Below are positions 49,694-57,412 of a stretch of 64,000 bases of DNA, one piece after another (the stretch's first letter is position 1; each line of letters starts with the position of its first letter). The stretch is from the NCBI GenBank assembly GCA_903927185.1, contig CAIYLW010000045.1, positions 1-64,000 on the forward strand, written 5' to 3'. The notes under the pieces were generated by a model, which did not search any database, was not told the origin of the DNA, and was given only the letters and a program-made list of their open reading frames with translations. Source of the DNA: an uncultured Bacteroidota bacterium. Its GTDB lineage: Bacteria; Bacteroidota; Bacteroidia; Chitinophagales; Chitinophagaceae. Position numbers and translations under genes: made by a program.

Positions 49694-50857
49694 ATGGCTC
49701 AAATTCTTATTATTGATGATGAACGTTCTATTAGGAATGTGTTGAAAGATATATTAACCAATGAAGGGTTTAAAGTAGAAGAAGCAGCCGATGGCGAGGA
49801 AGGATTAAAGAAGTTTAATGCTAATTCCTATGATTTGGTTTTGTGTGATATAAAGATGCCCAAATTGGATGGACTAGAATTTTTGGATAATATTATTCAG
49901 GCAAATTCAGAAGTTCCGGTAATTATGATTAGTGGTCACGGCAATATTGAAACAGCTGTGGATGCTGTAAAAAAGGGTGCTTACGATTATATTTCAAAGC
50001 CGCCAGATTTAAATCGATTACTAATAACTATTAGAAATGCCCTAGATAAAAATAACCTTGTTAAAGAAGCTAAAGTACTGAAGAGAAAAGTTTCTAGGGT
50101 GCAAGAAATCATAGGGAATAGCGATGCGATTAATAAAATAAAAGAAACGATTGAAAAAGTAGCCACCACTGATGCCAGGGTTTTGGTGACTGGTGAGAAT
50201 GGCACAGGAAAGGAATTAGTAGCAAGGTGGTTACATGAGAAAAGCAATAGGTCAAATGGTCCTATAATCGAAGTCAACTGTGCCGCAATACCATCAGAAT
50301 TAATTGAAAGCGAATTGTTTGGTCATGAGAAAGGCTCTTTCACCTCGGCTATTAAACAAAGGATTGGAAAATTTGAACAGGCAAATGGGGGCACTTTATT
50401 TCTTGATGAAATTGGCGATATGAGTTTATCCGCACAGGCAAAAGTGTTGAGAGCTTTGCAGGAATCAAAGATTACCAGAGTAGGGGGGGATAAAGAAATC
50501 ACAGTTGATGTTCGAGTGATAGCTGCAACTAATAAAGATCTTTTAAAAGAAGTAGAATTAAAGAACTTTAGGTTGGATCTTTATCATCGAATAGGGGTTA
50601 TTTTAATTCAAGTGCCTTCACTTAATCAGCGTCTAGAAGATATCCCATTATTAGTCGACAAATTTCTAATAGATATTGCACAGGAATATGGCCAAGCTAC
50701 TAAAACGATAGATAAAAAAGCAATGGAAGCATTACAATTGCATAACTGGACAGGCAATATAAGAGAACTAAGAAATGTGGTTGAAAGATTAATTATACTT
50801 TCAGGAAAAACTATTACTGTATCTGATATCTCTAGTTTTGTAATTCCGGGTTCTTAA
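49694..50857 (+). CDS. Sigma-54-type response regulator without an HTH domain
   Basis: A 387-residue NtrC-like regulator. The receiver domain (1-120) has the phosphoacceptor Asp in LVLCDIKMPKLDG. The AAA+ domain (about 140-375) has Walker A GENGTGKELVARW, Walker B TLFLDEIGDM and an arginine-finger region. The sigma-54 contact loop, normally GAFTGA, reads GSFTSA (residues 214-219), a variant I recall from other Bacteroidota. The protein stops after ITVSDISSFVIPGS, so the C-terminal Fis-type HTH is absent. It may activate without site-specific DNA binding. The 3' end overlaps the convergent MerR gene by 26 bases. No cognate kinase is adjacent. Confidence 0.9.
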   Translation: MAQILIIDDERSIRNVLKDILTNEGFKVEEAADGEEGLKKFNANSYDLVLCDIKMPKLDGLEFLDNIIQANSEVPVIMISGHGNIETAVDAVKKGAYDYISKPPDLNRLLITIRNALDKNNLVKEAKVLKRKVSRVQEIIGNSDAINKIKETIEKVATTDARVLVTGENGTGKELVARWLHEKSNRSNGPIIEVNCAAIPSELIESELFGHEKGSFTSAIKQRIGKFEQANGGTLFLDEIGDMSLSAQAKVLRALQESKITRVGGDKEITVDVRVIAATNKDLLKEVELKNFRLDLYHRIGVILIQVPSLNQRLEDIPLLVDKFLIDIAQEYGQATKTIDKKAMEALQLHNWTGNIRELRNVVERLIILSGKTITVSDISSFVIPGS

Positions 50858-51731
50858 AATTTATTGGAAATAGAATCATTTCTTCCATCGATTTTAAACA
50901 TATTAAATTTGGTGAGTTTAAACTAAGATTTTTTGTATATGGGCCAGAAGCAATGATTTTTATTGTTGGGAAAAGAATTTGTAATTCTTCTACAAATTCA
51001 TTTAACGTTTTCCCTGTTAAATTGGTGATGAGGTGAAAGTATAAATGTGTTACACCTCTTTGTTCAACACATAATGATATATCTGAAATAGAAGTATTAG
51101 TGCCAAGATAAATTACTCGTCTTCCATTTTTCTTGAAAAGCCAATGAGCAAATAATAATGGAATTTCGTGAAACTCACCATAAGGTGTAAATAATAAAGT
51201 TAATTCTTTTGAACCAGAGGTTGTATTTGGCAATTCTTCAATGGCTCTAATGATTCTTGATTTTATCAGATTAGTTGCAAAATGTTCTTGAGCAGGAATC
51301 AAATGATTAGTTAACCATAGCAGTCCCATTCTTTTTAATAAATGATAGGCAATTTCTGAAATGGCAATTTCAAATCCCAGCTTTGTAATAGCATTATTTA
51401 AAATACTGTCGAAATTAGTAGCATCATAATCAATCGTTACTCTAATTAATTGTAAAATGTATGCTTCAGTAGGTATAGATTTTTTATGATCTATGTTGGC
51501 AAAAGTGTTAATTGCTTCTGCACTTAATTTAGCAATTTGAGAAATTTTAAAATCAGATTCGTATAAATAAGTGATTCGAAGTATTGTTTTTAAGTCCTCA
51601 TTATCAAAATATCGGTGTTTACTATCTTTTCTTTTTGAAATAATGAGATTATATCTTTTTTCCCAAACACGAAGTGTATGAGCTTTAATACCAGTTAGAT
51701 TCTCTATATCTTTAATGCTAAAATAATCCAT
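50832..51731 (-). CDS. MerR/CarH-LitR-type B12-dependent photoreceptor repressor
   Basis: A 299-residue regulator. The MerR winged helix (1-70) has HTLRVWEKRYNL and HRYFDNEDL. A helical cap domain follows (about 85-165) carrying the adenosylcobalamin signature W-x9-EH (Trp139, Glu149, His150), then a B12-binding Rossmann domain with GEFHE (His188, the expected lower axial ligand). These are the residues that make CarH-type proteins light-sensitive repressors: tetramers bind DNA in the dark and split in light. The residue after Trp139 is Leu, where Thermus CarH has the His132 that forms the bis-His adduct. Targets elsewhere often include carotenoid genes; none are here. It is divergent from lepB. 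Confidence 0.88.
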   Translation of the reverse strand: MDYFSIKDIENLTGIKAHTLRVWEKRYNLIISKRKDSKHRYFDNEDLKTILRITYLYESDFKISQIAKLSAEAINTFANIDHKKSIPTEAYILQLIRVTIDYDATNFDSILNNAITKLGFEIAISEIAYHLLKRMGLLWLTNHLIPAQEHFATNLIKSRIIRAIEELPNTTSGSKELTLLFTPYGEFHEIPLLFAHWLFKKNGRRVIYLGTNTSISDISLCVEQRGVTHLYFHLITNLTGKTLNEFVEELQILFPTIKIIASGPYTKNLSLNSPNLICLKSMEEMILFPINFKNPELQN

Positions 51732-54012: not shown

Positions 54013-54597
54013 ATGGTTATTCATGTTCAAAAAAGAAGACTTTTTCTAACTTATTTGAAGCTTGGATATCTTTTGCATTTAATGTCAATTTTGGAATTAG
54101 TGCTTATCATAAGTTGTTTTCTTCATTATGATTTATTCCATTGGGTTCAAAATGAGTATACTTTTTTAAGAGCAATTTTAGTATTTGTTTTTATTTCAGC
54201 TCCCATCTTTCCTCAGTGCGATGCTCGATCAAGATTCCAAAATTATAAACAAGTAAAAGATCATTTATTCATCTATGGTTTTCAGCCAAGAATTATAAAA
54301 CCATTTTCTTTTTCAAGATGTCAAAGAGACGCGGTTTTAGCTGCTGCTGAAGAATTAGGAATGAAAAAGGAATGCAAACAATATTTTTTTGAACAGGGGC
54401 ACCGCTGGTATCACCTTTTACCAGAATTTCTTTATCACAAACCTGGATATTTATTTCGAAAAGCATTTTGGCTCAATACTTTTTTTGCAAAACACTATCA
54501 ATCTAAAGTAGATTTTTCCGTTCATGTAAAAGCCAATAAGTATAATTTATTAAATGAAAATCAGTTTAATTTAATGCAGGATTTATTATCTAATTAA
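54013..54597 (+). CDS. Two-helix membrane protein, unknown function
   Basis: A 194-residue protein with two hydrophobic segments (about residues 15-38 and 50-67) and a basic, aromatic-rich cytoplasmic part containing FPQCDARSRFQNYKQVKDHLF and CQRDAVLAAAEELG. The second half (EQGHRWYHLLPEFLYHKPGYLFRKAFW) has many His and Trp. I believe similar unnamed proteins exist in Chitinophagaceae, but I cannot assign a role. It overlaps the convergent T9SS protein gene by 12 bases. Confidence 0.7.
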   Translation: MVIHVQKRRLFLTYLKLGYLLHLMSILELVLIISCFLHYDLFHWVQNEYTFLRAILVFVFISAPIFPQCDARSRFQNYKQVKDHLFIYGFQPRIIKPFSFSRCQRDAVLAAAEELGMKKECKQYFFEQGHRWYHLLPEFLYHKPGYLFRKAFWLNTFFAKHYQSKVDFSVHVKANKYNLLNENQFNLMQDLLSN

Positions 54598-56613
54598 AAC
54601 AGTAGTGCCTTTTAAATGAAAGATCTTGCCAGTATCTTTATGGGTGTAATCCAGCGTCCAAATATAGGTTCCACTTGGTTGTAATTCTCCATTTAATCTA
54701 CCATCCCATTTTTCATGCCAATCGCTGCTTTCATAAATTATCTGCCCATAACGGTTGTAAACTTTAAAGCTTAGGTTTCTTGCTTTAAATGCATTTAGCG
54801 GGTAGAGATAATCATTTAGTCCATCTCCGTTTGGTGTAAATCCTGTGGGTATATCAATATAACAGTTAGGAAGAACAAATACATTTTTGAAACTAGTATC
54901 TGAACAGTTAAATACATTTTGCACTACTTCCACAACTAGGTATTGGTTTTGATTGCCATTTGCAGGGAAATAGATGCCCACAGGTTGTTTTAAGTTACTA
55001 GTTAAGCTATTTCCAAAACTCCATTTCCAACTTATAATATTAGAACTGCTATTATCAACAACCATTAAACTATCATTCAAACAAAGTGTATCCGAAATAG
55101 TAAAACCAGCCTTCACGGTATGGTCAGGTAAATTTAAATCAACAACACTGCTATCATTACAAAATCCATTTGTTACAGATAAAACAGTATGCAATTTTCC
55201 AAACTTGTTTAATTTTAAAATAGGATTTTGTAAAGCACTATTGGTACCATTGTTTAATGTCCAATTCCACTGATTGGCTCCATTATTGGCATCATGGAAT
55301 AAATTTAAGGTATCGTATTTGCATCCAACATCAATTTGGTAAGTGAAATCTGCAGTAGTAACATTTTTTATCGAAAAATTAATTATGGAACCTATTGGTG
55401 TTGGTTGACCACATTCGTTAATGATAATATTCCCATTAGTTCCATTTTGTAAATGCAATTGATAATTACCATTAGTTTTAATTGGACTGCTAAGGATAAT
55501 TTGAATAATATCCGATAATCCACTACTGCAAACTCCTTGCGCTGATTTGATATTGACTGGAGAAGGACCAGTAATAAAAAAGTTGGATCCATCTTTTGAT
55601 ATAGAGCTACACTTCATTGGTCTACTGAAAACTAATTGTAAGGTATCTTGAATACACACAATTGGTCTAATACTGTCCATAGGAGTTGGGAGTGCAGTAG
55701 TGAAAATTAAACTCTCTGTTAATCCAACCGCAAGCTGATTTCCACAGTTATCCAATAAGGTGTTATGGTCTGTTCCAATTTTTGAAGTTACCGTATATGT
55801 TCCTGGTGTAAGAAGGTTTTGCAAAGTTAATTCAAGTGTATCTGTATCAAAAGAAACAGCACATCCACGACCAGTAGTTAATGCAATAGAATTTGGGGTA
55901 GTTCCAGAAACATTGAAATCAGTACCATCAGAACTGATGCTATTGCAGAGCACTTTTTTGTTAAGCATTAACAAAATTTGAGTACCGTCGCAAACTGCGT
56001 GACCCTTTGAAATTGTTGGGGTAACTGGATCAATAATACTAGCTGATCCACCTTGAAAAGACAGGTTATATCCAACTTGGGATGGAGAAAAATTGCTAAC
56101 AAGCAAAATATAATTGTGTCCTGCAATTAAGTCTGGCATGGTACTAAATGTTGGATTACCATTAATTGCAGGGGATGCACATTCAAACCATTTTACTCCA
56201 GAACTTCCTGCTCCTGTTGGTCCATACATGCCTGACCAGTTAGCAGAAATAATTAAATTACTGTTCGTATAAACTTCCATTGGGTCATGCCCAGTAATAT
56301 CAAACAGTTCCCAATCATAATCATCATTAGAATTAATTGGGGTAATAGTAAAAGCAAATTTACCGGAAGCATAACAGGTGAATTTGTACCAAAATGGATT
56401 AATATCCGAGTAACCAGCCTTGTCGGTACAAGGTGTTGGTACACTTCTGCCTCCACAAAAAGGAACTATTTTTTGGTCAAAGTTGGTAGTCCCGCAAACA
56501 GGGAATGCAGTAGTTGGATTCTGTCCAAGTGTAGTGCATATTTGCCCCTCACCAGTTAAATAAATAGTTAGTGTAAAAATTAAAGCAACTATATGTCGAT
56601 ATTGGAATTTCAC
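54586..56613 (-). CDS. T9SS type-B secreted protein with gliding motility C-domain
   Basis: A 675-residue secreted protein that starts at GTG (no ATG precedes its signal peptide). The middle part contains several Ig/PKD-like repeats, including a PKD-like segment (DSLMVVDNSSSNIISWKWSFG). The last 85 residues are the gliding-motility-associated C-terminal domain: CYIDIPTGFTPNGDGLNDYL and FKVYNRYGQIIYESSDWHEKWDG, used as a type-B sorting signal for type IX secretion. It should be exported and attached to the cell surface, probably acting as an adhesin or matrix protein. Its promoter carries a perfect inverted repeat. Confidence 0.9.
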   Translation of the reverse strand: MKFQYRHIVALIFTLTIYLTGEGQICTTLGQNPTTAFPVCGTTNFDQKIVPFCGGRSVPTPCTDKAGYSDINPFWYKFTCYASGKFAFTITPINSNDDYDWELFDITGHDPMEVYTNSNLIISANWSGMYGPTGAGSSGVKWFECASPAINGNPTFSTMPDLIAGHNYILLVSNFSPSQVGYNLSFQGGSASIIDPVTPTISKGHAVCDGTQILLMLNKKVLCNSISSDGTDFNVSGTTPNSIALTTGRGCAVSFDTDTLELTLQNLLTPGTYTVTSKIGTDHNTLLDNCGNQLAVGLTESLIFTTALPTPMDSIRPIVCIQDTLQLVFSRPMKCSSISKDGSNFFITGPSPVNIKSAQGVCSSGLSDIIQIILSSPIKTNGNYQLHLQNGTNGNIIINECGQPTPIGSIINFSIKNVTTADFTYQIDVGCKYDTLNLFHDANNGANQWNWTLNNGTNSALQNPILKLNKFGKLHTVLSVTNGFCNDSSVVDLNLPDHTVKAGFTISDTLCLNDSLMVVDNSSSNIISWKWSFGNSLTSNLKQPVGIYFPANGNQNQYLVVEVVQNVFNCSDTSFKNVFVLPNCYIDIPTGFTPNGDGLNDYLYPLNAFKARNLSFKVYNRYGQIIYESSDWHEKWDGRLNGELQPSGTYIWTLDYTHKDTGKIFHLKGTTVLIR

Positions 56614-56617
56614 CTAT

Positions 56618-56651
56618 CAAATTTATTGTATCAATGCTGAATTGATACAAA
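56618..56651 (-). promoter_or_regulatory. Promoter of T9SS protein with inverted repeat filling the spacer
   Basis: On the minus strand TTTG (56651-56648), a 22-base spacer, then TAAATTTG (56625-56618): both elements match the consensus. A perfect inverted repeat TTGTATCAAT-N5-ATTGATACAA (56626-56650) fills the spacer. The start point predicted from the -7 box falls at or near the GTG, implying a leaderless mRNA. Regulator unknown. Confidence 0.6.
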
Positions 56652-56824
56652 TTCGTGATAATCTTATCATAAAAATGACAAATAATTAAGTTCTGATATT
56701 ATTTTAATTGTAATCAATTGAAAAACACGTAAATATGTTATTAACTCCTATTTATTAAGTACATTAATTTAGGTTTGGCATGGTGTTTGGCTTATCATTG
56801 AAAGTAATTATTACCAATCTATAT

Positions 56825-56896: not shown

Positions 56897-57412
56897 ATGA
56901 AAAAAATTATTGCCATTATATTGATGATAATCTGTCATGGGCAGATTCATGCACAAATTGATACTATAATCAACCCTATAAAAGCGGATACTCTTTTTCA
57001 AGTTAGGGATAGCCTTGCGCCTTTAAAAGATTCTTTTAAACTCGATTCTTCTATTAAATTAGAGCCTTTGGGCGGTTTTAAGTTAAAACCTAATGCAAAA
57101 GTAATTACCGGAATCGCCAGTTTTTACTCAAAAAATCTGGATGGTACAAAGACTGCAACAGGAGAGTATTATAGAAATGCAAAGCTTACAGCTGCTAGTA
57201 ATAATTACAAATTGAATACTTGGGTAAAAGTTACTAATATCAGTAATGATAAATTTGTAATTGTACGGATTAATGATCGAATGCATCCGAGAATGGCAAA
57301 AAGGGGAAGGGTGGTAGATTTAAGCAGAGCAGCTGCAAAAGAGCTAGATTTCATGAAAAAAGGTCTCACTAAAGTCCGAGTTGAACCCATTGACATCATA
57401 AGTGTTGATTAA
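56897..57412 (+). CDS. RlpA-like double-psi beta-barrel protein
   Basis: A 171-residue exported protein with a signal peptide (ICHGQIHAQ) and a Pro/Lys-rich linker. The C-terminal RlpA-like domain (about 75-168) is GIASFYSKNLDGTKTATGEYY, WVKVTNISNDKFVIVRINDRMHP, then RVVDLSRAAAKEL. The conserved Asp in NDRMHP and the His both match active RlpA lytic transglycosylases, which cut peptidoglycan lacking stem peptides. There is no SPOR domain. It probably acts in the periplasm on the cell wall. Confidence 0.9.
   Translation: MKKIIAIILMIICHGQIHAQIDTIINPIKADTLFQVRDSLAPLKDSFKLDSSIKLEPLGGFKLKPNAKVITGIASFYSKNLDGTKTATGEYYRNAKLTAASNNYKLNTWVKVTNISNDKFVIVRINDRMHPRMAKRGRVVDLSRAAAKELDFMKKGLTKVRVEPIDIISVD

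Follow-up and report, generated by a model that had tools for sequence, protein, structure and literature searches.

The window, a 64,000-nucleotide stretch of a Chitinophagaceae genome, carries on its minus strand a gene (54586..56613) for a 675-aa secreted protein with a signal peptide-like N-terminus and a C-terminal CHU_C type IX secretion domain (PF13585, E=1.2e-16). The domain bears out the preliminary description of this DNA, which had placed a type IX secretion (T9SS) gene behind the promoter studied here. A divergent RlpA-like gene (56897..57412, plus strand; PF03330, E=1.8e-15) encodes a double-psi beta-barrel lytic transglycosylase. The gene order is priA, murB, an OmpA-like gene, the rlpA-like gene, the CHU_C gene, a small ORF, the cytidine deaminase gene, lepB and a MerR-family gene. 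The last of these (50832-51731, minus strand) combines MerR_1 and B12-binding_2 domains in a CarH-like arrangement. Synteny confirmed that the locus is the same in two relatives, G149 and G106, and in G027 and G035 as far as their loci reach.

Read on the minus strand, the promoter region of the CHU_C gene runs TTTG-TATCAATTCAGCATTGATACAA-TAAATTTG-ATAG-GTG. The TTTG (56648..56651) resembles a -33 element. It stands 22 nt before TAAATTTG (56618..56625), which occupies -12 to -5 relative to the start codon as the housekeeping sigma factor's -7 element. The perfect inverted repeat TTGTATCAAT-TCAGC-ATTGATACAA (56626..56650, minus strand) has 10-bp arms, a loop of 5 and no mismatch, as had been described. 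It had also been said to fill the promoter spacer exactly, which we correct: the repeat opens with the TTG of TTTG and covers these three bases together with the spacer proper (56647-56626, 22 nt). The GTG at 56611..56613 is both start codon and predicted transcription start; an in-frame TAG immediately precedes it, and the signal peptide contains no other ATG, GTG or TTG, which leaves the start codon no alternative position.

The elements on both sides of the repeat had been matched to the Bacteroidota promoter consensus, and the match is supported for the -7 side, the TTTG being a less certain -33 element. TAAATTTG conforms to the TAnnTTTG -7 box of sigma-ABfr promoters (TAHHTTTG in F. johnsoniae). 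For genome-wide counts we used 1.97 Mb of this genome (34% GC), sampled in pieces, with a simple open-frame caller. Around 165 TAHHTTTG boxes, TTG occurred most often 19, 20 and 22 nt upstream (8, 9 and 11 times, versus about 3-4 elsewhere), and TTTG was most frequent at 22 nt. The 22-nt spacer is thus ordinary in this genome. The -33 TTTG motif is weak in F. johnsoniae too (PMC6847099), and here it is present at a common spacing but is not kept in relatives.

How surprising is the palindrome itself? For repeats with arms of at least 10, loops of 3-8 and no mismatch, Markov models of order 1 and 2 built on the genome put the expectation at 0.92-0.96 in 64 kb; the window contains 6, of which several look like terminators. 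One such palindrome somewhere in the window is therefore expected by chance. It is mildly unusual, on the other hand, that this one lies in a promoter: for the about 50 genes of the window, the expectation would be roughly 0.06. Genome-wide, such a repeat lay within 60 bp upstream of the start codon in 14 of 1,423 genes, compared with 0-4 in column-shuffled controls. By inspection, most of the 14 resemble terminators of the preceding gene. The palindrome at 56626-56650 does not: it lacks the GC-rich stem and the run of Ts behind it that mark an intrinsic terminator. An Rfam scan of the window found no family.

The comparison with related species separated the kept parts of the promoter from the rest. 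We found the orthologous gene in six genomes, with proteins 68-80% identical, and aligned the promoters of these seven species, the window's included, which were close enough for the purpose; five of the relatives aligned without gaps. The -7 box TAAATTTG was identical in six of the seven species and read TAGATTTG in the seventh, G106. The GTG start was kept in all seven, each time with the box ending 4 nt before it (N4). In the ungapped alignment, the kept core is AATAAATTTG-N4-GTGAAAT, the exceptions being the first bases in the G126 context and TAGATTTG in G106. By contrast, the palindrome and the TTTG were both absent from the orthologous promoter in all six relatives; loss of the repeat among close relatives with the same gene is what the preliminary description had itself named as evidence against its reading. 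The identity of the arms to the relatives was 0.62-0.64, versus 0.64 for flanking sequence, and that of the -7 box was 1.00 in the six aligned species.

In the palindrome columns, the relatives paired at 4-6 of the 10 arm positions at this register, where about 3 would be expected. This partial symmetry is slightly high, as a degenerate ancestral site might leave behind. Summed over the five ungapped relatives, however, 10 of the 303 registers of the same alignment scored higher; we therefore rejected a conserved weak dyad in the relatives, since the pairing is not exceptional within the alignment.

The kept box, and how far it stands from the start codon, bear on a second claim, that the transcript start and the GTG nearly coincide and the message is leaderless. 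The sigma-A box of F. psychrophilum occupies -12 to -5 (PMC9723704), and the gap from box to start site in F. johnsoniae is 4-5 nt (PMC6847099); with a box at N4, transcription is therefore predicted to begin on the first base of the codon. Among the 1,423 sampled genes, 27 had a TAnnTTTG whose end lay exactly 4 nt ahead of the start codon, where the background gives 1.1 per position; the start codon was ATG in 24 of these, GTG in 3 and TTG in none. Of 19 more distant orthologues, 17 had a -7-like box (TAnnTT[T/C][G/A]) ahead of a GTG or ATG, at a distance of N4 or N5. Across all orthologues the count was 24 of 26 with such a box 4-5 nt before the start, versus 3.9% of all genes, although these orthologues are related and so not independent. 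The genome-wide peak at exactly N4, together with the conservation of box and start, makes a leaderless CHU_C message well supported; the transcription start and leaderless translation are what we infer from these patterns.

The N4 arrangement is not special to the CHU_C gene. Two further genes, rlmN (L210:7984-9039, plus strand) and pyrD (L116:11132-12185, minus strand), carry TAnnTTTG-N4-ATG, kept in 12 relatives and in most of 11 relatives, respectively, when near-consensus boxes are allowed in these counts; both are probably leaderless. On the other hand, sdhC also has an N4 box in this genome, yet from its relatives the promoter appears to lie upstream. Because rlmN and pyrD keep the box and sdhC does not, the arrangement is a stable feature of some genes, and an N4 box can also be fortuitous, as it is in some of the 27. 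In Bacteroidota, TAnnTTTG promoters are already known to give leaderless mRNAs, which form a minority class. These messages make up 5.5% of the mapped mRNAs in F. psychrophilum (PMC9723704), and about 3.7% of 5' UTRs in B. thetaiotaomicron are under 10 nt (PMC7366714). The CHU_C gene has in common with these messages (PMC9723704, PMC7366714, PMC6847099) the -7 box, placed at -12 to -5, and a start site that would be the start codon. It differs in that the case is built from sequence and conservation, concerns a GTG instead of an ATG, and comes from one Chitinophagaceae genus. These patterns suggest that leaderless expression, GTG starts included, is stable for particular genes in that genus.

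We then asked whether the palindrome recurs, as had been proposed for finding a regulon of arm-N5-arm sites. The genome yielded a single site and no regulon. No second copy, exact or with up to 3 mismatches, was found outside coding sequence in the assembly, which is about 94% complete; the nearest match has 3 mismatches and lies within a serine acetyltransferase-like coding sequence. A search of the genome with a variable-spacing pattern gave no further site, and a shortened pattern gave a few weak 2-mismatch matches only. Across the genus (147 genomes), 7 other genomes had one 2-mismatch match each, a number near that of the reversed-pattern control, which matched in 3 genomes. All seven matches fall in open frames as called, in unrelated genes. 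One of them, in G142 (L243:1501-1525), is itself a perfect dyad, TTGTATCATT-CACTA-AATGATACAA, two mismatches from the window's dyad. Though inside the called frame, it lies a little ahead of the ATG that more likely starts its gene, which we take, from reading the sequence, to be SRPBCC-like.

These results weigh on the proposal that a dimeric regulator sits in the spacer and controls the gene directly. In one form, a species-specific operator, a dimeric repressor would cover -37 to -13 and block polymerase. The repeat resembles the operator palindromes of dimeric repressors in spanning the -33 to -7 spacer as a perfect inverted repeat; its perfect 10-bp arms are centred in a promoter, they are not a terminator, about 0.06 such cases are expected per window, and the relatives show slight partial symmetry. 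A lineage-specific local regulator would, moreover, need no second site. Nevertheless, the dyad is unique in the genome and recurs neither at a co-regulated gene nor at a regulator's own gene, the genus matches lie in unrelated open frames, and six orthologous promoters lack it. Its arms evolve at the flanking rate, and no dedicated regulator gene is adjacent that could be its cognate. We therefore consider such an operator unlikely. A somewhat narrower version, in which the spacer recently became a perfect dyad in this species alone, for a local regulator switching a single target, the type IX-secreted surface protein, is slightly less probable still. More generally, when a genome is AT-rich, a perfect palindrome of 10 bp counts weakly as evidence for an operator.

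Two further readings fare considerably worse. In one, transcription would begin at an upstream promoter, and the repeat would form an RNA hairpin in the resulting longer transcript and control translation. A stem of -12.4 kcal/mol can form on the strand, but the z-score is only -1.59, the stem is absent in relatives, has no terminator tail and lies upstream of the predicted start site, making this reading very improbable. The least probable is a MerR-type activator twisting a too-long spacer, the DNA bending suggested in the preliminary description: the dyad does lie between two promoter elements, as in MerR-family operators, and the MerR/B12-binding gene, 5 kb away and with its synteny kept in G149 and G106, would be a candidate, but a twist is not needed because the 22-nt spacer is among the commonest in this genome, and relatives without the palindrome have the regulator gene as well.

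An ordinary leaderless promoter with a chance palindrome is thus the best explanation, to which we give a probability of about 0.82. An ordinary housekeeping promoter of the sigma-ABfr type would drive the CHU_C gene, and TAAATTTG at -12 to -5 would set RNA polymerase to start at the GTG or within a base of it, yielding a leaderless mRNA. The palindrome lies in the weakly constrained stretch from -37 to -13, is most likely a coincidence of one species and not an operator, and would have no regulator bound to it. Comparing one promoter across species distinguished its kept parts, the -7 box and its spacing from the start codon, from those that are not kept.

The intergenic alignment also contains invariant sequence in all seven species. 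One invariant block, ATAAGATT (56660..56667, minus strand), lies ahead of the CHU_C gene at -54 to -47; considered as an element that other genes might share, it showed no positional enrichment before them. The most conserved intergenic stretch is the 18-nt element TTTGGCATGGTGTTTGGC (56774..56791, plus strand), identical in all seven. Of 13 other genomes in which a copy with at most 1 mismatch and an rlpA-like gene could both be located, 12 (G010, G061, G064, G065, G074, G079, G105, G114, G129, G142, G159 and G165) had the copy roughly 35-135 bp upstream of the gene and on the same strand, the distances being measured to rlpA-like starts extrapolated from alignments. The exception is G118, whose copy is on another contig. 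G114 has a second copy, with one mismatch, on another contig. The pairing extends to genomes in which the CHU_C gene is elsewhere. TTTGGCATGGTGTTTGGC belongs to the rlpA-like gene rather than the CHU_C gene. It resembles a sigma-54 -24/-12 promoter, with TGGCAT-N5-TTGG in which TTGG stands in place of TTGC, and an rpoN gene is present.
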